Source of the DNA: Sphingomonas sp. 28-63-12
Lineage (GTDB): Bacteria; Pseudomonadota; Alphaproteobacteria; Sphingomonadales; Sphingomonadaceae
Reading direction: 5' to 3'
Assembly (NCBI GenBank): GCA_002281535.1
Contig: NCGD01000002.1
Location: 178,762-242,761, forward strand
Length of the DNA stretch: 64,000 nt
Shown: positions 38,833 through 48,559 of the stretch, piece after piece
Position numbering within the stretch: position 1 is the first letter of the stretch
Layout of the letters: the number at the start of each line of letters is the position of its first letter
The notes under the pieces: model-generated
The model's input: only the letters and a program-made list of their open reading frames with translations
The model's database searches: none
Told to the model about the DNA's origin: nothing
Position numbers and translations under genes: made by a program

Positions 38833-40608
38833 ATGGGTACGGATATGGCGCAAATCGATAAGATCGCGGCGGATACACCGCCCTATGCGCATGTCCCAAC
38901 GGCGACCTATGATGATTTGCCACGGCGTTTCGCCGATTTCGAGACACTCGGCGAAGCGCTTGATTATGCCGCTGCGGGCAAGCGCGGGCTGAATTTTCAC
39001 GATGCACGCGGCAGTTTGTCGCGCCCCTACCCCTTTGCCGAACTGCGCACCGATGCCATTGACACCGCACTTCGCCTGATGGCGATCGGCGTGAAGCCGC
39101 TCGACCGGATCGCGATGGTCGCCGAAACTGGACCAGAATTTGCCGCCCTGTTCTTCGGCGTGGTCTATGCCGGTGCATGGCCTGTACCCCTGCCCTTGCC
39201 GACGTCGTTCGGCGGCCGCGACGCCTATATCGAGCAGATTCGTGTCCAGCTCGGCAGCTGCGATCCATCGATGCTGATCTATCCGCCCGAGCTAGCCGAC
39301 ATGGCAGGCGAAGCCGCCCGGCTCGCCAATGTTGCGGGCATGGACTGGGCCGATCTCGGCAATCGTCCTGCGCCGGCGGCACCTTTGCCTCAGGCGAAGC
39401 CAGACGATATAGGCTATCTGCAATATTCTAGCGGCTCGACGCGGTTTCCGCATGGCGTCGCCGTCACCCACCGGGCGCTGCTCAATAATCTTGCCGCACA
39501 CAGCCATGGCATGGACCTGATCGCAAGCGATCGCTGCGTCTCTTGGCTGCCTTGGTATCACGACATGGGCCTGGTCGGTTGTTTCCTGTCCCCTGTCGCC
39601 AACCAGCTGTCTGTCGATTATTTGAAGACGGAGGATTTCGCGCGGCGTCCGCTCGCATGGCTAGATCTCATCACTCGCAACATGGGAACAACCGTAAGCT
39701 ATTCGCCAACGTTCGGCTATGATATCTGCGCCCGGCGCATGTCGAGCCAGACTAAGGCATCGGGTCGGTTCGATCTATCGCGCTGGCGGATTGCCGGCAA
39801 TGGCGCCGACATGATCCGCCCGGACGTGATGCAGGGCTTTGTCGATGCCTTCGAAGGCGCCGGATTCACGGCCAACGCGTTCCTGCCAAGCTATGGCCTC
39901 GCCGAGGCGACCCTGGCGGTCTCGATCATGCCGCCGGGTGAGGGCATTCGCGTCGAGCTGGTCGAAGAAACCCAGCTGTCGGGCGTTGCCTCGGGGCAGG
40001 ATCGCCCTCAGCGTTTTCGCGCGATCGTCAATTGCGGCAAACCGGTGCGCGACATGATGGTCGAAGTCCGCGAAGAAGACGGCACGCCGCTGCCCGAACG
40101 GGCGATCGGCAAGATTTGGTGCAAGGGGCCGTCGATCATGGACGGCTATTTCCGCGATCCTGACTCTACCGCTGCCTGCCTCGTCGATGGCTGGCTCGAC
40201 ACAGGGGACATGGGCTATCTGTCTGACGGCTATGTCTATATTGTCGGTCGCGCCAAGGACATGATCATCGTCAATGGTAAGAACCATTGGCCGCAGGATA
40301 TCGAATGGGCGGTGGAGCAACTGCCCGGGTTCAAGGCTGGCGATATCGCTGCCTTTGCCATCACTACGCCGGGCGGCGAAGAGACCCCCGCGGTGCTCGT
40401 GCAGTGCCGGAGTTCGGACGAGAAGGAGCGAATTCGCCTGCGCGAAGCCATCCGCGAAAAGGTCCGCTCGGTCACCGGCATGAACTGCGTGATCGAATTG
40501 ATCCCGCCGCGTACCCTTCCCCGCACCAGCTCGGGCAAGTTGAGCCGCGCCAAGGCGCGCAACCTTTATCTGAGCGGTGATATCAAGCCCTATGCGATTG
40601 CCGCATAG
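38833..40608 (+). CDS. Fatty-acyl-AMP ligase (FAAL type)
   Basis: ANL-superfamily adenylating enzyme of 591 residues. The P-loop-like YSSGSTRFPHGVAVTHR (about 197-213) has Arg where acyl-CoA synthetases have Gly, and WLPWYHDMGLVG follows; both are typical of FAALs, which make acyl-adenylates for transfer to carrier proteins. The later motifs GLAEATLAVS, DTGDMGY, GRAKDMIIVNGKN and SSGKLSRAKAR complete the fold. I chose ATG 38833 (AAGGG upstream); ATG 38845 is possible. No polyketide synthase or carrier protein is adjacent, so its partner is unknown. Confidence 0.88.
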   Translation: MGTDMAQIDKIAADTPPYAHVPTATYDDLPRRFADFETLGEALDYAAAGKRGLNFHDARGSLSRPYPFAELRTDAIDTALRLMAIGVKPLDRIAMVAETGPEFAALFFGVVYAGAWPVPLPLPTSFGGRDAYIEQIRVQLGSCDPSMLIYPPELADMAGEAARLANVAGMDWADLGNRPAPAAPLPQAKPDDIGYLQYSSGSTRFPHGVAVTHRALLNNLAAHSHGMDLIASDRCVSWLPWYHDMGLVGCFLSPVANQLSVDYLKTEDFARRPLAWLDLITRNMGTTVSYSPTFGYDICARRMSSQTKASGRFDLSRWRIAGNGADMIRPDVMQGFVDAFEGAGFTANAFLPSYGLAEATLAVSIMPPGEGIRVELVEETQLSGVASGQDRPQRFRAIVNCGKPVRDMMVEVREEDGTPLPERAIGKIWCKGPSIMDGYFRDPDSTAACLVDGWLDTGDMGYLSDGYVYIVGRAKDMIIVNGKNHWPQDIEWAVEQLPGFKAGDIAAFAITTPGGEETPAVLVQCRSSDEKERIRLREAIREKVRSVTGMNCVIELIPPRTLPRTSSGKLSRAKARNLYLSGDIKPYAIAA

Positions 40609-40678
40609 CGCCGCAAAATGCTTCAGATCTAGCATTGCTCTAACCATCCGCTAACCAACGGCGGTGTAGAGTATCGGT

Positions 40679-43039
40679 GTGACAATCCAAATTGCCTCGC
40701 AATTCGCACAGCCGAAGATCGATGCTTGCGCATTGCTGGGCCTCTATGACCCGGCTGATTCGACCGATTGGGGCCCAATCCGCGCTGCCCAGCTACATGC
40801 CGGACGCCAACTTGCGCTGTTTATGCTCGCCGCCAATGTGGTCGGTGCTGCGATGGTCATCCTGCTGACGGTGGATTTGATCCCGGCCTGGGCGCGGCTA
40901 AGCTGGGGTGCCGCTGTGGCGGCAATCAGCGTCTCAATCGCCTTTCGCCGTCTCAGTTCCACGCATCGCAATGCATCCATCGCACCGATTGAAGCCGTCC
41001 GAGATACGGTATTGGAGGGGATCGCACTCGGCGTAGTCTGGGCAGTGCCACCCATTGCGCTTTGCACCCATGCGGATATGGGCGACGCGCTCGGCATGTG
41101 GATCATCCTATCGGTTCTGATGACGGCATCATCGGTAGCAATGGCGGCGCTGCCGCTGGCCACGATCAGTTTCCTCGCCATTTTGGGTGGTTCGATCAGT
41201 GTCGCGTTGGCGATGGTCGTCGGGGCATTGCCGGCGGCGGCGACATCGTTATTCACCATATTGCTGATGATTGGCTGTTTTGGCCGAGCCAAGGCGCTTG
41301 TTATAATCCGGGCGAATGAGATCGCCTTGGCCGAGCGCGACGAAACCGTCAGCCTGTTACTCAACGATGAGGAAGACCGGAGCGCCGACTGGCTATGGGA
41401 AATCGACGCAGCGCGCCGCATTGTGCGCGCCTCGCCACGTTTTGCCTATGCCGTCGGGCTTGATCCGATCGCCATCAACAAAATGCCGTTCCTGCAGGTC
41501 TTAGCAGGATCGGCATGGGAAACCGGTAAATTCTCCGCTGGCCTGCGAACGCTCGCCGACAAACTCAAAAGCCGCGAAGCCTTTCGCGAGCTGGTGCTCC
41601 CGGTACAAATCAATGGCGTCGATCGCTGGTGGGAAATGGCCGCGACCCCCCGTACCGACGATACGGGTAATTTTATCGGCTTTCGCGGGGTCGGGTCGGA
41701 CATTACTGATGCCCGGGCATCGGCCGACAAGATCAATCGTATGGCGCGCTTCGATATTCTAACAGGCCTCGCCAACAGGTTGCTCCTGACCGAGACCTTG
41801 TCGCGCGCCATGGCGGATGCCGAAAAATGGAATGCGCGCTGCGCGTTCATGATGATTGATCTCGACCGCTTTAAGGCAGTCAATGACACGCTTGGCCATC
41901 CGGTGGGCGATCGAATGCTGGTAATGGTGGCGGAGCGACTGCGCGGCCTGATCGGCGAACGCGACATCGTCGGGCGGCTCGGCGGGGATGAATTCGCGAT
42001 TGTGATCAGCGATGCCAGCGACACCGAGCAGGTCGTGCGCCTCGCGGAATCGATCATCGCAGCGATCTCCAAGCCTTACGACATCGACCAGAACACTCTG
42101 CACATAGGCGCCAGCCTTGGCATCGCTATCGGTCCGCGTGACGGCCGGACCACCGAAATGCTGATCAGATCTGCCGACCTGGCACTTTATCGGTCAAAGG
42201 ATGCCGGCGGCAACACCTGCCACATCTACGAACCGCAGCTCCATATCGTCGCCGAAGAACGGCGCGTGCTGGAAATGGCGTTGCGCAAGGCGCTGACCAA
42301 TGGCGAGCTCCACCTCAATTATCAGCCAGTCGTCAATGCCGCGACCGGCGCGCTCACGGGCTTCGAAGCCCTGCTGCGCTGGACGCACCCGGAGCTAGGC
42401 AATGTCTCGCCGGTCAAGTTCATTCCGCTAGCCGAGGATACCCGAATGATTGGCCCGATCGGCGAATGGGTCTTGCGCACTGCCTGTGACGAGGCGGCGG
42501 GCTGGGCCACTCCCGTACGCGTTGCCGTCAACGTCTCGCCCGAGCAACTTAATTCACCCAGCTTTGTTAACGTCGTCGCCTCCGCGCTCGCCAATAGCGG
42601 TTTGGCGCCTGACCGGCTGGAGCTTGAAGTAACTGAGAGTGTATTCATGCGTGAGGGATCAGGCGCCATCAAGGTGCTCGAGCGCATTCTCGATCTCGGC
42701 GTAAAGCTCTCGCTTGATGATTTCGGGACGGGCTATTCCTCACTTGGCTATCTCAGTCGCACACGGTTTTCGTCGATTAAGATCGATCGCAGTTTCGTGC
42801 AGGGCGCATCCAAAAAGGTGCCGGAAGCAATTGCGATCATCCGCGCGGTGGTCGCGCTCGCGCAATCTCTCGGGATGGCGACGACGGCCGAGGGGGTAGA
42901 AACTGAAGAGGAACACAGCATGGTCTATGAACTAGGCTGCACCAAGGTGCAGGGCTATTATTTCGGCCGCCCGCTTCCAGTGGAAGAAGCCCGTGCGGTC
43001 GTGCTACGCGCCGCCGGGCGGGCATCCGCAGTCGCCTGA
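40679..43039 (+). CDS. Membrane GGDEF-EAL cyclic-di-GMP protein
   Basis: A 786-residue protein starting with GTG. About 40-210 holds several membrane helices, followed by a PAS-like domain (about 230-350, ADWLWEIDAARRIVRASPRF). The GGDEF domain has an intact RLGGDEFAIV at about 432-441. The EAL domain has GFEALLRW near 560, ELEVTESVF and DDFGTGYSSLGYLS, so both diguanylate cyclase and phosphodiesterase catalytic residues appear present. The inhibitory I-site Arg (RxxD) before GGDEF is replaced (GERD). It follows the acyl-AMP ligase by 70 bases. Confidence 0.93.
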   Translation: MTIQIASQFAQPKIDACALLGLYDPADSTDWGPIRAAQLHAGRQLALFMLAANVVGAAMVILLTVDLIPAWARLSWGAAVAAISVSIAFRRLSSTHRNASIAPIEAVRDTVLEGIALGVVWAVPPIALCTHADMGDALGMWIILSVLMTASSVAMAALPLATISFLAILGGSISVALAMVVGALPAAATSLFTILLMIGCFGRAKALVIIRANEIALAERDETVSLLLNDEEDRSADWLWEIDAARRIVRASPRFAYAVGLDPIAINKMPFLQVLAGSAWETGKFSAGLRTLADKLKSREAFRELVLPVQINGVDRWWEMAATPRTDDTGNFIGFRGVGSDITDARASADKINRMARFDILTGLANRLLLTETLSRAMADAEKWNARCAFMMIDLDRFKAVNDTLGHPVGDRMLVMVAERLRGLIGERDIVGRLGGDEFAIVISDASDTEQVVRLAESIIAAISKPYDIDQNTLHIGASLGIAIGPRDGRTTEMLIRSADLALYRSKDAGGNTCHIYEPQLHIVAEERRVLEMALRKALTNGELHLNYQPVVNAATGALTGFEALLRWTHPELGNVSPVKFIPLAEDTRMIGPIGEWVLRTACDEAAGWATPVRVAVNVSPEQLNSPSFVNVVASALANSGLAPDRLELEVTESVFMREGSGAIKVLERILDLGVKLSLDDFGTGYSSLGYLSRTRFSSIKIDRSFVQGASKKVPEAIAIIRAVVALAQSLGMATTAEGVETEEEHSMVYELGCTKVQGYYFGRPLPVEEARAVVLRAAGRASAVA

Positions 43040-43101
43040 CCTCGTCGCCGAAGAGCGATCTTGCGTCGCCCGCATGGCGGGGCTAAAGGCTTGTGCCGCA
43101 C

Positions 43102-43178
43102 AGGGGTGTAGCTCAGCTGGTTAGAGCGTCGGTCTCCAAAACCGAAGGCCCTCGGTTCGAGTCCGAGCTCCCCTGCCA
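43102..43178 (+). tRNA. tRNA-Trp (CCA)
   Basis: A 77-base cloverleaf including the encoded CCA. D stem is GCTC/GAGC, anticodon stem TCGGT/ACCGA with loop CTCCAAA (anticodon CCA, Trp), T arm CTCGG-TTCGAGT-CCGAG. The acceptor stem AGGGGTG/CTCCCCT has a T-T mismatch at pair 6-67. tRNA-Trp upstream of secE-nusG is the ancestral bacterial arrangement. Confidence 0.95.
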
Positions 43179-43198
43179 AATGCCGCCTTCCCGATCCG

Positions 43199-44818
43199 CT
43201 ACTGCGCCCCGCCGAGCAAGGCCTCAATCGCCGCGAGCAGCGCTGCGGTCGCAAACGGCTTGCGGATGATGGCCACGCCGTCGCCGGTCAGCACATCGAG
43301 CCGCGCGGAATCGGCAAAGCCCGTCGCGATCAGCACCGGGCGACCGGGATGCGCCGCGCGCAATTGCGCCGCCACATCGGCACCGTTCATCGCCGGCATG
43401 GCAAAATCGACGATCACCAGATCATAAGCATCCTCGATCGCGCTCGCCAGCCCGGAGGGACCGTCATGCGCCGTCCGCACAGTGGCGCCGAGCGCGGTCA
43501 GCGAATCCGCGACGACGTTCAGAACGTCCGGATCGTCATCGATCACCAGGATATGGCGCCCGTCGAGCGGCGACGCCGGGCTGTCCGCGCTGCCGGGATC
43601 ATTGTCCGGCCCCGTCTCGATCGCGGCCGCCGCGCGCTGGAGGATGAGCCTGACGGTGGTGCCCGCCCCCGGCGCTGTATCGATCTCGACCAGGCCGCCG
43701 GCCTGCGAGACGACGCCGAACACCATGCTGAGGCCAAGCCCGGTGCCCTTGCCGACGCCCTTGGTGCTGAAAAACGGCTCGAAAGCCCGTGCCGCCACCT
43801 CGGGCGTCATCCCCATGCCCTCGTCCCGCACCTCGATCATCACATAATCGCCCGGCGGCAACGCGCGATCGGCGCTGGCGAGCGCCGGGCCACAGCGAAT
43901 GCTGACCGTCCCGCCATCCGGCATGGCATCGCGGGCGTTGATGGTGAGATTGAGCAAGGCCAGTTCCAGCTGCGCGCGATCCGCGACCACGGCGAGCGCC
44001 GGATCGGGCACCGGCATATCGAGCCGCACCAGCGGGCCGATCGACTTGTCGATCAGGAGGCGCGTTTCGGCAAAGACCGGCGCCAGGGCAAAGCGGGTGA
44101 TCTCCATCGTCTGCACGCGCGAAAAGGCCAGCAGCTGCCCGGTCAGCTTCCTGCCGCGATCCACGGCCTGGCGCGCATTGCGCCCCCAGCGCGCGATCGC
44201 CCCTTCGGCACCGGCCTTTTTCTCGATCAGCTCGATATTGCCGGCAATCGCCTGGAGGAGATTGTTGAAATCATGCGCGATACCGCCGGTAAGCTGGCCA
44301 AGTGCATCAAGCTTCTGTGCCTGCAGCAACGCCTGTTCGGCCTGTTCGCGGTGGCGGACCTGGGCCTGGATTTCAGCGATGGCGGCATCGCGCGCGCGAA
44401 TGGCCCGCGCCAGATCGGCATTGGCGGCAGCCAGTGTGGCCGTGGACGGCACCGCCACCGCCCTGGGGATCAGCGGCCACAGCGCGATTGCTGTTGCCAC
44501 GGAGATGATCGCGGTGACCACCTTGATCGCGGCCTCCGCCCCATAATTGCCGTGCCACAAGGTCCAGATCGACATCAGATGGGTACAGCCGCACGCCAGG
44601 ATAAACGCCGCGAACAGCCCCACGATCCAGCTATAGCGCACATCGTTGCGCTGCCGGATCAGCGTGACCAAAGCGACGGGAATCGAGAAATAGGCAAGCG
44701 CGATCAGCGCGTCGGCCACCACATGCGCCCAGATCAGCCCGGGCTGCCATAACAGGCAATAACCATGCGGGGCATAGCTGCCGTCGAAAAATGCCCGCGT
44801 CAGGTCAACCGTGGCCAT
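43199..44818 (-). CDS. Hybrid histidine kinase with ethylene-receptor-like sensor domain
   Basis: A 539-residue hybrid kinase from the ATG at 44818 (GGGGAGA upstream). Residues about 30-120 form three membrane helices whose sequence follows the plant ETR1 ethylene-binding domain: D36, Y43, P47, I73, C76 and H80 match ETR1 D25, Y32, P36, I62, C65 and H69 with identical spacing. A coiled coil (about 130-168) leads to the H box GGIAHDFNN (H182) and an ATPase domain (NARDAMP; DEGMGM; GTGLGL). A receiver domain follows, with phospho-acceptor Asp near 471 (VIVDFAMP). There is no GAF domain. It is convergent with tRNA-Trp and divergent from secE. Ligand is inferred, not shown. Confidence 0.9.
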   Translation of the reverse strand: MATVDLTRAFFDGSYAPHGYCLLWQPGLIWAHVVADALIALAYFSIPVALVTLIRQRNDVRYSWIVGLFAAFILACGCTHLMSIWTLWHGNYGAEAAIKVVTAIISVATAIALWPLIPRAVAVPSTATLAAANADLARAIRARDAAIAEIQAQVRHREQAEQALLQAQKLDALGQLTGGIAHDFNNLLQAIAGNIELIEKKAGAEGAIARWGRNARQAVDRGRKLTGQLLAFSRVQTMEITRFALAPVFAETRLLIDKSIGPLVRLDMPVPDPALAVVADRAQLELALLNLTINARDAMPDGGTVSIRCGPALASADRALPPGDYVMIEVRDEGMGMTPEVAARAFEPFFSTKGVGKGTGLGLSMVFGVVSQAGGLVEIDTAPGAGTTVRLILQRAAAAIETGPDNDPGSADSPASPLDGRHILVIDDDPDVLNVVADSLTALGATVRTAHDGPSGLASAIEDAYDLVIVDFAMPAMNGADVAAQLRAAHPGRPVLIATGFADSARLDVLTGDGVAIIRKPFATAALLAAIEALLGGAQ

Positions 44819-45054
44819 TGCTGTGTTCTCCCCGAGAATGTCCGTCATAAACGCGCATCGCGCGATAAAGAAACGGCCAAAACCACAGCGCCAGGCCCAG
44901 CACGGCCCCCATGCTTGCGCCCGGCATGGAAGGGCGTTATGGCAACGCTCTAATCCGAAATCGGGATTGATCATCGTCCGTGCCCCTTGCGGGACCGGGC
45001 GGCGAAACTATGTCCCGGTTTTGGGTCCGGACTTTGGTGGATCAAGGACAGCAC

Positions 45055-45252
45055 GTGGCAAAGACGACCCCTCTCGAATTCATCCGTCAGGTGCAAACCG
45101 AAACCAAGAAGGTCGTTTGGCCCACGCGCCGCGAAACGATCATGACGGGGGTGATGGTGATGGTGATGACGCTGATGCTCGGCGTTTTCTTCTTCACGAT
45201 CGATTCGATCTTCGAGGCGATCGTGAAGCTGCTGCTGTCGTTCGCAAAATAA
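45055..45252 (+). CDS. secE: Preprotein translocase subunit SecE
   Basis: Essential small subunit of SecYEG, 65 residues. The GTG at 45055 has AGGA about 6 bases upstream and gives the standard short form beginning with AKTTPLEFIRQVQTE. The conserved cytoplasmic motif KKVVWPTRRET precedes a single C-terminal membrane helix. A longer in-frame reading to 44980 lacks family similarity. nusG follows after 26 bases. Confidence 0.95.
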   Translation: MAKTTPLEFIRQVQTETKKVVWPTRRETIMTGVMVMVMTLMLGVFFFTIDSIFEAIVKLLLSFAK

Positions 45253-45278
45253 GCGTGGAAGCAAGGACGTAAGAACGC

Positions 45279-45818
45279 ATGGCACGCTGGTACATTATTC
45301 ACGCTTATTCGGGTTTTGAGGGCAAGGTCCGCGATTCGATCCTGTCGGAAGCGACCCGCATGGGCCTCGACCGGCTGGTCGAGGCGGTCGAAGTGCCGAC
45401 CGAGACCATCACCGAGGCGCGGCGCGGCAAGAAAATTCAGGTCGAGCGCAAATTCATGCCCGGCTATGTGCTCGCCAAGCTCGAAATGAACGACGACGTG
45501 TATCACCTGGTGAAGAACACGCCCAAGGTCACCGGCTTTCTGGGATCGATGGGCAAGCCCCAGCCGATCAGCGAGACCGAAGCGGCCCGGATGCTCTCCA
45601 CCAAGGAAGAAGCCGCCGCCGCCAACGTCAAGCAGCAGGTCAAGGTCGATTACGAGATCGGCGACGCCGTCAAGGTGCTCGACGGCCCGTTCGCGAGCTT
45701 CAACGGCACCGTGGAAGAACTCGATTTCGACAAGTCGAAGGTCAAGGTCTCGGTCAGCATCTTCGGCCGCGCGACCCCGGTGGAACTGGACTTCGAGCAA
45801 GTCGAACGCGTGAAATAA
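45279..45818 (+). CDS. nusG: Transcription termination/antitermination protein NusG
   Basis: RNA polymerase-associated elongation factor, 179 residues. The NGN domain begins MARWYIIHAYSGFEGKVRD and includes FMPGYVLAKLEM. The C-terminal KOW domain has GDAVKVLDGPFASFNGTVEELD. Co-transcribed with secE; the normally adjacent rplK is 5.5 kb away here. Confidence 0.97.
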   Translation: MARWYIIHAYSGFEGKVRDSILSEATRMGLDRLVEAVEVPTETITEARRGKKIQVERKFMPGYVLAKLEMNDDVYHLVKNTPKVTGFLGSMGKPQPISETEAARMLSTKEEAAAANVKQQVKVDYEIGDAVKVLDGPFASFNGTVEELDFDKSKVKVSVSIFGRATPVELDFEQVERVK

Positions 45819-45845
45819 CCGCGTCGCGGTGATTTCACGTCCGCA

Positions 45846-45868
45846 CAGGATTAGCGCAGCTAATCCTG
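45846..45868 (+). terminator. Perfect hairpin downstream of nusG
   Basis: CAGGATTAGC and GCTAATCCTG form a 10-bp perfect stem with a GCA loop, 28 bases after the nusG stop. No T-run follows, so Rho-independent termination is not assured; a 3'-end stabiliser is equally possible. Confidence 0.5.
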
Positions 45869-45920
45869 AGACGGCGTTCGACCGGCCGGCGGGTCGCGGC
45901 ACGCGATCCCGTCCGACGAA

Positions 45921-45943
45921 GACGCGGGATTTATTCCCGCGTC
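45921..45943. terminator. Second hairpin downstream of nusG
   Basis: GACGCGGGA and TCCCGCGTC form a 9-bp perfect stem with a TTTAT loop, within a larger outer inverted repeat. No T-run follows. Possible back-up terminator or boundary of the inserted island. Confidence 0.4.
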
Positions 45944-46149
45944 GCGACCCCGCGCCCTTGGCCTCCGCCACCAATTCCCTCACGGCCCGCACGCCGCGCA
46001 CCGGGAAACGAGCCACCCCCGCCAAAGACCAGCAATAGCGGCAACGGGCCGCGCGCCGACCCTAATGACCGCGACACCGCTAAAGCCTGAAGGCATGGAA
46101 TTCAGCATCAATTGGTGCTAGGATTGATGCCTTATCCGAAAGGCCGCCC

Positions 46150-46341
46150 ATGCGCACCACCATTGCCCTTGATGATGATCTCGTCAGCGCCGCGCAGCAT
46201 TATTCGGGCGTGAAGGAGAAATCGGCGCTGGTGCGCGAGGCGCTGACGGCGCTGATCGAGCGAGAGGCAGCGCGCAGGCTTGCCCGGCTGGGCGGCAGCG
46301 ATCCCGATGCCTCGGCAGGCCCCCGCAGCCGCCGCAGGTGA
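46150..46341 (+). CDS. VapB-type antitoxin
   Basis: A 63-residue protein: MRTTIALDDDLVSAAQHYSG is a ribbon-helix-helix-like DNA-binding start typical of the VapB family found with PIN toxins, followed by KEKSALVREALTALIEREAARRLARLGG. The basic C-terminus (GPRSRRR) would contact the toxin or be disordered. The stop lies 10 bases before the vapC GTG. Likely represses its own operon with VapC (family knowledge). Confidence 0.85.
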   Translation: MRTTIALDDDLVSAAQHYSGVKEKSALVREALTALIEREAARRLARLGGSDPDASAGPRSRRR

Positions 46342-46351
46342 GCCGGCGGGC

Positions 46352-46711
46352 GTGAGCAAGCTGCTGCTGGCCGATACCAGCGTCTGGATCGACCATTTGC
46401 GTCGGGGCGATGCCGAGCTGTCAAAGGCGCTGAACCAGGGGCGCGTGCTCGGCCATTCTATGGTGACCGGCGAAATCGCGATGGGCAGCCTGCGCGATCG
46501 TGCCCAGATTCTGGATGCGCTGCAGCGGCTGCCCCAGGCGGTACGCGCTACCGACGATGAAGTGATCGATCTGGTTGAGCGGCAAAGGCTGTTCAGCCTG
46601 GGGCTGGGCTTTATCGACGCGCATCTGCTGGCATCGGCGCTGCTGACGCCTGAGGCGATCCTCTGGACGCGCGATGCGCGATTGCGCGAGGTGGCGACAG
46701 AGTGCCGATAG
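46352..46711 (+). CDS. VapC-type PIN domain ribonuclease toxin
   Basis: A 119-residue PIN domain RNase. The metal-binding acidic residues are at LLADTSVWIDHL (Asp7 or so), VTGEIAMG (Glu), LGLGFIDAHLL (Asp) and LWTRDARL (Asp), in the right order. The start is the GTG at 46352, since the frame upstream overlaps vapB and is not PIN-like. VapC toxins usually cleave tRNA or rRNA; the target here is unknown. Confidence 0.88.
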   Translation: MSKLLLADTSVWIDHLRRGDAELSKALNQGRVLGHSMVTGEIAMGSLRDRAQILDALQRLPQAVRATDDEVIDLVERQRLFSLGLGFIDAHLLASALLTPEAILWTRDARLREVATECR

Positions 46712-47014
46712 CCGCCCGCCCGCTTGTTCAGGACCAGCCGGGCAGGAAGCGCCCCAATCTCCGTCGTTCGGCGCAGATTTTCGGTTTCCTGAAACCTGCC
46801 GCTCATTTGTCGCTTGCCGTGCTTCGACGAACGGCGACGTCTGGGACATACCCGTCATTCCCGCCAGTTCCGCCAAATGTCAGCTTCCGACACGAGCCGA
46901 CATTCGTACTTTCGGCTACCTTGGCTCATTGAACGAGCAAGACTGGCCGTTTTAAGACTGGCAGGTATCGGGAGACAACTTACACGCCGCAGCGCCAACC
47001 ATCTGCTAGTGTAG
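46712..47014. other. Gene-free, degenerate-looking stretch
   Basis: About 300 bases without a credible gene; base composition is less GC-rich than its surroundings. It contains one arm of a 27-base inverted repeat (46945-46971) whose other arm is at 48955-48981. No promoter is convincingly visible for the downstream gene. Confidence 0.5.
46945..46971 (+). repeat. Left copy of a 27-nt degenerate inverted repeat
   Basis: AGACTGGCAGGTATCGG (46955-46971) matches the reverse complement of 48955-48971 at 16 of 17 positions, and GGCCG just upstream extends the similarity outward. The outward extension argues for two copies of a dispersed repeat rather than exact transposon ends. Confidence 0.55.
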
Positions 47015-48463
47015 GTGCATGATGACGCGACAGACACTCCCATGCCCGTGATCGTGATGCTGGAAATCGAGTCCGGCTCGCCGGATCTCTGGCCCGCGGA
47101 GTTTGCCGACTCGCTCGGCTCTCCAAGCTGCGGCCGGGTTCGCGAGACTCTGTGCCTTGCTGCGATCGATCACCGCGCTGCGGATATCCGCGAACGCCTC
47201 ACGAACTACACAAAGCGATCCGCTGTCGGGGCGGCCGAGATTTGGACCGCGTTCCCCGAATATAGATGGGAATACTATGTCAAGATCGAGCGCATGACGC
47301 CCGGCGGGCCTGCGCGCGGCGAAGTCCGGCTGGGCGATGTCGTGAATGGCGACCGCCTGACCGAGATGACGCTCACGCTCTATAATCAGCGATGGTTCGG
47401 TGGCCCACCGCCAGATCCCAAGGCGCGCGAGACGATCAGCGTTTCCAAGGCGGATTTGGACGCATTCGCGTTCCTCCTCGAAACGGGCATCCCGCAACCT
47501 GCGGCACCATCCCAGATCGAAAGTATCAAGGGCAAGGAACTCTATTTCTGTCGCATCTTTTCAATTGTGGGCCTGCCCGATCCCGAGATCGTCCCGGGAG
47601 TGCGCTTCCTAACGATGCGGGAATTCCTCGCTACCGACTGTCTACAGCTAATCGCCGCCCATCACGCGCGGCAGGCAGCGAATGTCGAACAGTTCAGAAG
47701 CGCGGGCATCACGATTCCATCGCTCCAGATCACGCTGCCGCCGGACGCCAGCGGCGTTTTCCTCGCCGATCTCTCAATCATGAGCAAATCCTACGCCGAC
47801 GCTCTTGTTAGCCGCCTGCTCGCAGCGGTCGCGCTCACCTCGGGCGTGTCCGGTCAGATTGCCCTACAAATGAATATCGACGACGATCGCTATTCGTCAG
47901 AAGTGCGTTCAGAACAATGGAGCCGCCCCTATCAGAATGGCGCTGGCGTCTGGCAGAATGTCGCCTGGGCTGACAACCCGGTCCTACAGACTCTCATCAC
48001 GCTCATCGCCAGATCGACCGAGGGCAAGTTCATCGCTGGCAAAGAGGATTACCGGCTGCTTGCGATCGATACGGTGGAGGACAGTCGCCGGCCCGGGGTC
48101 GCCGTGCTGCAGCTTGCCCAGCTCTGGATGGCGTTAGAGCGGCTGCTGTCCTTCAAGAACGAAACCACCATCCAACTCGCGCTCGCTTTGTCCGCGCTGT
48201 CCCCCGCTGCGAAACGGGTCGCGGCTTTCGATGCGATCAAGAAATCTTATAATCTGCGGTCGCAGATCGTTCACGGCTATGCCTTCAAGCGTGATGAAAC
48301 CATCAACGCCGAACTCCAGCAACATGCCCAAACTTTCCGCGAAGTGCTGGCGCTCGCGCTCGACCCCATGATGACCAACGGGGACAGCCTGCGTGCTGCG
48401 ATGATCGCGCACGTCCTGTCTGGCACCGCCTCACCGATGACGGCCACACCACCCCCGCCCTAA
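47015..48463 (+). CDS. Uncharacterised protein with C-terminal HEPN-like domain
   Basis: A 482-residue protein I cannot assign to a named family over its full length. Its last third (about 360-450) looks like an Apea-type HEPN domain: LWMALERLLSFKNETT followed by YNLRSQIVHGYAFKRDE. R415 and H420 form the Rx4H motif of HEPN ribonucleases. The N-terminal 300 residues have no recognised motif. The first codon is GTG at 47015; ATG at 47042 is an alternative, and neither has a clear ribosome site. It sits in an island with VapBC and gene remnants, in lower-GC sequence, suggesting horizontal acquisition (inference). Confidence 0.75.
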   Translation: MHDDATDTPMPVIVMLEIESGSPDLWPAEFADSLGSPSCGRVRETLCLAAIDHRAADIRERLTNYTKRSAVGAAEIWTAFPEYRWEYYVKIERMTPGGPARGEVRLGDVVNGDRLTEMTLTLYNQRWFGGPPPDPKARETISVSKADLDAFAFLLETGIPQPAAPSQIESIKGKELYFCRIFSIVGLPDPEIVPGVRFLTMREFLATDCLQLIAAHHARQAANVEQFRSAGITIPSLQITLPPDASGVFLADLSIMSKSYADALVSRLLAAVALTSGVSGQIALQMNIDDDRYSSEVRSEQWSRPYQNGAGVWQNVAWADNPVLQTLITLIARSTEGKFIAGKEDYRLLAIDTVEDSRRPGVAVLQLAQLWMALERLLSFKNETTIQLALALSALSPAAKRVAAFDAIKKSYNLRSQIVHGYAFKRDETINAELQQHAQTFREVLALALDPMMTNGDSLRAAMIAHVLSGTASPMTATPPPP

Positions 48464-48559
48464 TCACCAGCATCAACGCGGCGCGCCTCCGATCAGAGCG
48501 CCACTCAAGCAGCACCGTCTCTACCGCAACCCAGCTATCCCCTTGTATGCCGATAGACG

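Follow-up and report, generated by a model that had tools for sequence, protein, structure and literature searches.

The window (the whole 64,000-nucleotide stretch of DNA analysed) carries a gene encoding a hybrid histidine kinase with an ETR1-like sensor domain (Table 1), whose coordinates and strand had been given correctly in a preliminary description. A tRNA-Trp gene adjoins it, as had also been described, 20 bases from the end of the kinase gene, and is flanked in turn by a gene encoding a PAS-GGDEF-EAL protein. On the other side of the kinase gene is an ORF that we take, from its sequence, to be secE-like. Among these neighbours, no response regulator gene was found beside the kinase gene, and nothing pointed to the PAS-GGDEF-EAL protein as a target of the kinase. 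Farther along, an ORF at 46280-46711 (+) presumably encodes a PIN-domain VapC-type toxin, judged by eye. The reading frame upstream of the ATG of the kinase gene stays open to 44974; in the homologue L052, the N-terminus is 2 residues shorter, and the earliest possible start lies only 9 bases further upstream.

Table 1. Features of the kinase gene, its product and its surroundings in the window (aa, residues of the product)
Feature	Position	Strand	Basis
PAS-GGDEF-EAL protein, conserved neighbour at tRNA-Trp	40679..43039	+	Pfam; relatives
tRNA-Trp (CCA), conserved junction landmark	43102..43178	+	ARAGORN
ETR1-like hybrid histidine kinase, 539 aa	43199..44818	-	ORF, ATG at 44818
Receiver, aa 423-532, putative phospho-acceptor Asp471	43223..43552	-	Pfam PF00072, 70.4 bits
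HATPase_c, aa 280-395	43634..43981	-	Pfam PF02518; DHp-CA fold closest to CckA 5idj
HisKA dimerisation/phosphoacceptor, aa 173-236, His182	44111..44302	-	Pfam PF00512, motif IAHDFNNL
ETR1_N ethylene-binding-type sensor, aa 28-122	44453..44737	-	Pfam PF25487, 130.7 bits
Predicted TM3, aa 92-113, with K99	44480..44545	-	AF2; hydropathy 93-123
Predicted TM2, aa 63-89, with I73, C76, H80	44552..44632	-	AF2; hydropathy 59-88
Predicted TM1, aa 26-56, with D36, Y43, S45-I46-P47	44651..44743	-	AF2; hydropathy 26-56
Motif P17-H18-G19-Y20-C21, N-terminal to TM1 and shared by bacterial homologues	44756..44770	-	
secE-like ORF (presumed), start uncertain	44980..45252	+	ORF list; named from its sequence

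The Pfam search gave the domain order ETR1_N, HisKA, HATPase_c and receiver, with no match to GAF or PAS at E 0.001, which bears out the order without GAF proposed earlier. The ETR1_N match had an E value of 2.4e-38 and scored 130.7 bits against a cut-off of 27 (134.7 bits when the whole genome was searched), and its assignment is thus far above chance. The preliminary description had placed the protein in the ETR1-type family and had suggested a profile search; membership is supported by that profile as well as by the alignment and the structural model described below. The HisKA score, 28.0 bits, was barely above its cut-off of 26.9. The kinase and receiver residues H182, N294 and D471 were all found. 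ETR1_N had a single match in the window's genome, whose completeness of 94.78% leaves room for a second copy.

All seven ethylene-binding positions of ETR1, which we take to be D25, Y32, I35, P36, I62, C65 and H69, are matched in the window protein by D36, Y43, I46, P47, I73, C76 and H80, respectively. Five of these residues and the SIP motif had been pointed out before, and they lie as claimed, with spacings of 7, 30, 3 and 4 residues along D36, Y43, I73, C76 and H80. The equivalent of the helix-3 lysine, K99, is also kept. The claim that the sensor aligns with ETR1 without gaps fails through helix 3, because H80 and K99 are 19 residues apart and the ETR1 counterparts 22, so that a 3-residue gap is placed between them. 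In the published pairing of ETR1 H69/K91 with H79/K98 of AzoEtr1, a receptor of Azospirillum brasilense, the residues are likewise 22 and 19 apart, respectively (PMC11819568). Seven residues are reported to be required for ethylene binding in ETR1 (PMC11819568, PMC6682694), and D25, C65, H69 and K91 are named in the literature on the receptor (PMC11819568).

AF2 predicted three transmembrane helices ahead of the transmitter, and the same three were obtained by hydropathy. The full-length model, based on an alignment of 40 full-length sequences, had a mean pLDDT of 86.3 and a low pTM of 0.49; after TM3, it contained a long helix (126-200) running through the phosphoacceptor site. A model of the sensor only (170 residues, 41 sequences) had a pLDDT of 89.0 and a pTM of 0.64, with helices near-identical to those of the full-length model (TM2 63-88) and a continuous linker helix. 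Structure prediction had been proposed as a check on the sensor residues; the models place C76 and H80 inside predicted TM2 and D36 and Y43 inside predicted TM1. C76 and H80 are described here as putative Cu(I) ligands. The positive charge of the TM1-TM2 loop, which holds 3 K/R, suggests that the N-terminus faces out. In the PDB, the sensor had no solved structural relative by profile (E 1), and a fold search with the sensor model returned nothing at E 0.001 or better.

The protein was compared with the ethylene receptors already described. AzoEtr1, from an alphaproteobacterium, was published as an ethylene receptor in 2025, and its residues 1-130 fused to GST showed saturable 14C-ethylene binding in yeast (PMC11819568). 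The novelty implied by the preliminary description is not supported, since an alphaproteobacterial receptor with measured ethylene binding was already on record; the cyanobacterial receptors to which it referred are indeed published. An A. brasilense protein among our homologues (L126; 525 aa with D35, C75, H79 and K98) agrees in length and in these residues with published AzoEtr1; the sensors of L126 and the window protein share 54% identity. AzoEtr1 and the window protein are both alphaproteobacterial ETR1_N kinases with the same seven residues, the lysine (K98/K99) at identical spacing and one receiver as partner. They differ in that AzoEtr1 contains a PAS domain and its response regulator, of 135 aa, is encoded by a gene of its own downstream (PMC11819568), whereas the window protein has no PAS match and a fused receiver. 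The partner regulator of AzoEtr1 is reported to lack a recognisable output motif (PMC11819568).

Arabidopsis ETR1, of subfamily 1, shares with the window protein the three-helix domain with the seven equivalents, followed by a kinase and then a receiver. The plant subfamily-1 receptors ETR1 and ERS1 have a GAF domain placed after the membrane part and before the kinase, for which the window protein gave no match at E 0.001; the stretch from H80 to K99 is 3 residues shorter, and the kinase is of the bacterial CckA class. The CTR1/EIN2-type output of plants (PMC7700396) is not expected for the window protein. SynEtr1 (slr1212) of Synechocystis is another bacterial receptor kinase for ethylene and signals through a phosphorelay (PMC11819568, PMC7700396), but it has a GAF domain that binds a chromophore and responds to light as well, whereas neither GAF nor PAS was matched in the window protein; this likeness was drawn from published descriptions of SynEtr1. 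An ETR1_N-type domain was noted in 2020 in many proteobacteria and cyanobacteria with diverse outputs (PMC7700396). In the partial literature searched by title, no paper on an ethylene receptor of Sphingomonas or Sphingomonadaceae was found. The window protein is a further member of a recognised bacterial receptor family and is not new in kind.

ETR1_N was found in 32 of the 201 genomes sampled in the window's genus, 20 of 199 in the family, 28 of 385 in the class and 29 of 398 in the phylum (28 of the last scoring over the cut-off of the Pfam model). The genome of the window is counted in every sample, and some closer relatives are among the wider ones. Several loci from the genus sample are identical in sequence to loci of named Sphingomonas genomes, which points to Sphingomonas as the genus. 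In a scan of named genomes, 533 stretches matched two motif patterns, 489 of them were relatives, and the best 80 of the 489 were kept. These 80 include Sphingomonas, Novosphingobium, Sphingobium, Belnapia, Azospirillum and other alphaproteobacteria, as well as gammaproteobacteria, betaproteobacteria, cyanobacteria and a Nitrospinales MAG, with classes taken in part from record titles. Eighteen plasmid records, seven of them from Azospirillum, contained a sensor match, and phage records contained none. All seven residues were present in 40 of 49 Pfam-drawn proteins from the genus and family (the window's L001 included, the partial loci L049 and L051 excluded) and in 76 of the best 80 named loci, for which the scan itself was motif-selected. 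Three further matches in the genus comprised one with all seven residues (L235) and two without (L233 and L234).

The motif ahead of TM1 was counted in 107 domain rows, which were the Pfam-drawn matches listed, with L001 and split rows included and 17 rows gapped. Among the matches listed, each of the 74 gap-free rows that carry the complete set of seven has C21, and the 16 rows without the full set kept it in 9 cases and lacked it in 7. Under looser gap rules, again among the matches listed, C21 was absent from 7 of 9 rows without C76 versus 4 of 88 rows with it. C21 was also found in 79 of the best 80 named loci, a motif-selected set. The raw counts hint at a correlated loss of C21 and C76, but phylogeny-aware pair tests yielded 2 (C76-C21) and 4 (full set-C21) supported pairs, with which significance was out of reach. 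Counterexamples occurred both ways, with C21 kept without C76 in L176 and L200 and the reverse in L020, L027, L196 and L198. A role of the H-G-x-C motif in copper capture is put forward as a hypothesis only.

C76 was absent from 8 of the 33 ETR1_N copies in the genus sample. Six copies (L021, L023, L024, L025, L029 and L030) have G or D at this position and also lack C21 and P47; H80 and K99 are kept in all six and D36 in five, L030 having E. L030 is also shorter and has no receiver. The six form one clade (SH-aLRT 100) within the cysteine-bearing hybrids. L233 and L234 have Tyr in place of C76 and lack Y43, P47, I73 and K99, with D36, H80, the kinase motif and the receiver motif kept. A single loss of C76 was considered and given up, as the tree needed two losses once L233 and L234 were added; the support of the deciding fork was 10. 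The dN/dS of the sensor, from Nei-Gojobori counts with high synonymous differences that make all values rough, was 0.186 in five of the six G/D copies (L030, L233 and L234 left out). Two groups that bear the cysteine gave 0.171 and 0.184, and the three-member clade of the window gave 0.285. The value of 0.186 indicates purifying selection, and these copies therefore appear to be still in use. No description of such copies was found in the literature searched. We regard as speculative, and on balance doubtful, the combined proposal that a periplasm-facing P-H-G-x-C is part of the bacterial ethylene site and passes Cu(I) to C76/H80, and that the cysteine-less copies of the genus, with Gly, Asp or Tyr at this position but with the kinase, most receivers and a sensor under selection retained, are natural copper-free receptors that are constitutive or sense another ligand. 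The constitutive signalling envisaged for these copies can be likened to the plant etr1-1 allele, reportedly a dominant ethylene-insensitive change of Cys65 to Tyr.

The window gene groups in a single clade (SH-aLRT 99-100) with L052, from Sphingomonas sp. QA11, and L094/L020, from a Sphingomonas MAG. All three lie near tRNA-Trp, although in L052 an intervening gene puts the tRNA about 2.2 kb away. Beyond the tRNA, both L052 and L094 have a GGDEF-EAL-like gene, and the opposite flank of L052 holds secE/nusG-like ORFs, all named by likeness to the genes of the window; the opposite flank of L094 is cut off by the contig end. Among the best 30 tRNA-Trp loci from 61 genomes of the genus, 16 lacked a sensor match and had a secE-like ORF no more than 1.5 kb downstream of the tRNA, one was the window's own, and 13 had no secE match in the stretch covered. 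In L203, L207, L214 and L221, GGDEF-EAL, tRNA and secE are consecutive, with a tRNA-secE gap of about 0.15-0.26 kb. Because relatives have this junction without the sensor, the receptor gene looks like a single-lineage insertion, and we regard it as an inherited insert in a junction that varies. The spacer at the GGDEF-EAL/tRNA-Trp/secE-like junction (window 43039-44980; L203-L232) varies in length across the genus. A mobile element at the tRNA was rejected as an explanation, as no integrase-like ORF was seen by eye at 40000-48500 and the sensor occurred in no phage record; the neighbourhood common to two relatives also disfavours it.

The orthologue at the same tRNA-Trp locus, L094 375-1988 (= L020), no longer has Y43, the serine of SIP, H18 or C21 and keeps D36, C76 and H80; its sequence would fit a possible decaying receptor.

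At least four types of kinase occur in fusion with the sensor, as classified by the phosphoacceptor motif and, for eight examples, by Pfam. Two of the best 80 of 489 named loci were incomplete, and 72 of the 78 counted have a receiver either fused or encoded in an adjacent gene. In the same set, 29 of 30 HDFNN-type hybrids have no neighbouring regulator gene, and a regulator gene adjoins all 16 HDFNN-type kinases without a receiver (12 downstream, 3 convergent and 1 upstream); Fisher's test on this table gives p = 1.7e-11, which is not a true probability because the rows are related. Among the other kinase types, a regulator gene lies downstream of 4 of the 5 hybrids and of 21 of the 27 kinases that lack a receiver. 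The receiver profile was composed mostly of the hybrids' own receivers and six own-genome sequences, and distant regulators may escape it. The idea that the hybrid arose when a kinase of AzoEtr1 type fused to the regulator encoded next to it was unsupported, since the hybrid receivers fall outside the adjacent stand-alone regulators in a receiver tree of few columns and many unresolved forks. HWE/HisKA_2-like phosphoacceptor motifs occur with ETR1_N in L022, L026, L032, L034, L037, L041 and L043-L047 of the genus and family (by Pfam in L032 and L047), and L048 has Gln in place of the aligned phosphoacceptor His.

The kinase part of the window protein was closest in the PDB to 5idj and 5idm by sequence and to 5idj (CckA DHp-CA) by fold. 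The CckA models NF046020 and NF046026 gave 267 and 229.2 bits, respectively, below the equivalog cut-off of 1000. Another protein of the same genome, L135, scored 572 bits with the CckA model, also below 1000; since this far exceeds the 267 bits of the window kinase, L135 is likely to be CckA, and the window kinase is not the cell's CckA. The window protein shares with Caulobacter-type CckA the sequence class and fold of the HisKA-CA part and receiver and differs from it in its sensor. The genome has one ChpT-type HPTransfase (L144), three Hpt matches (L145-L147) and 34 receiver matches, of which 33 are above the cut-off. Of the Hpt matches, L145 is part of a frame of 791 aa, and the frame of L147 is interrupted by a stop.

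We consider it probable, at about three chances in four, that the window protein is a membrane-bound Cu(I) ethylene receptor of the bacterial ETR1_N family with a CckA-class kinase relay to its own receiver. The three transmembrane helices, with the N-terminus out, would dimerise and build a Cu(I) site in which C76 and H80 of TM2 are joined by D36 of TM1. Ethylene bound there would shift the helical linker (aa 126-200) and alter the activity of the kinase, which would autophosphorylate H182 and hand the phosphate to D471 of the fused receiver. From D471, the phosphate might be dissipated, or it might travel on through a phosphotransfer protein to a response regulator, both with genes elsewhere. 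We infer the binding of ethylene and copper from the aligned residues, and likewise dimerisation, the downstream partner and the direction in which the protein responds; the copper/ethylene chemistry and the phosphorelay signalling, the latter from Synechocystis, would carry over by analogy with published homologues. We count against this reading the losses in L094, the copies without C76 (8/33), the clade dN/dS of 0.285, the lack of an adjacent regulator gene, the failure to find a solved sensor structure, and the pTM of 0.49.

The aligned residues report a copper site and not its natural ligand, and the Cu(I) site could be kept for another signal, such as copper availability, carbon monoxide or a small alkene or alkyne, with ethylene as an accidental ligand. 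The occurrence of the family in diverse bacteria, including the gammaproteobacteria, cyanobacteria and Nitrospinales MAG among the best 80 of 489 loci, would fit such a signal. However, AzoEtr1 and SynEtr1 are both reported as ethylene receptors, and mutation of the equivalent Cys abolished ethylene binding in ETR1 and SynEtr1 (PMC11819568, PMC6682694), and we judge another natural signal unlikely. It is less probable still, and in our view very improbable, that the sensor no longer binds a ligand and is retained as a module for membrane attachment and dimerisation, which is the likely state of the cysteine-less copies. The loss of Y43 and other residues in the orthologue L094 means that function may be lost in the window's lineage, and C76 is missing from 8 of the 33 genus copies; against this, the seven residues and K99 are intact in both the window protein and L052. 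A further alternative concerns the output only and can be compatible with the ethylene-receptor reading: a CckA-class kinase with a grafted ethylene sensor could be wired to ChpT/CtrA-type signalling. The relationship of the kinase to 5idj and 5idm, its 229-267 bits with the CckA models and the single ChpT-type HPTransfase of the genome speak for such wiring, yet the protein is not a CckA orthologue, given the higher score of L135 with the same model, and in a poorly resolved tree its receiver falls apart from that of L135, whereas the receivers of two other hybrids, L054 and L067, fall with it. We hold this output to be possible, with odds well below even.

The window protein adds a compact single-protein form, with sensor, kinase and receiver and without GAF or PAS, to the bacterial ethylene receptors. 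Small bacterial forms of this kind are useful structural targets, as no solved ethylene-binding domain was found in the copy of the PDB searched. Within the genus, copies that have the copper-ligand cysteine can also be paired with natural counterparts that lack it, and the effects of copper and ethylene on a histidine kinase could be compared within such matched pairs.
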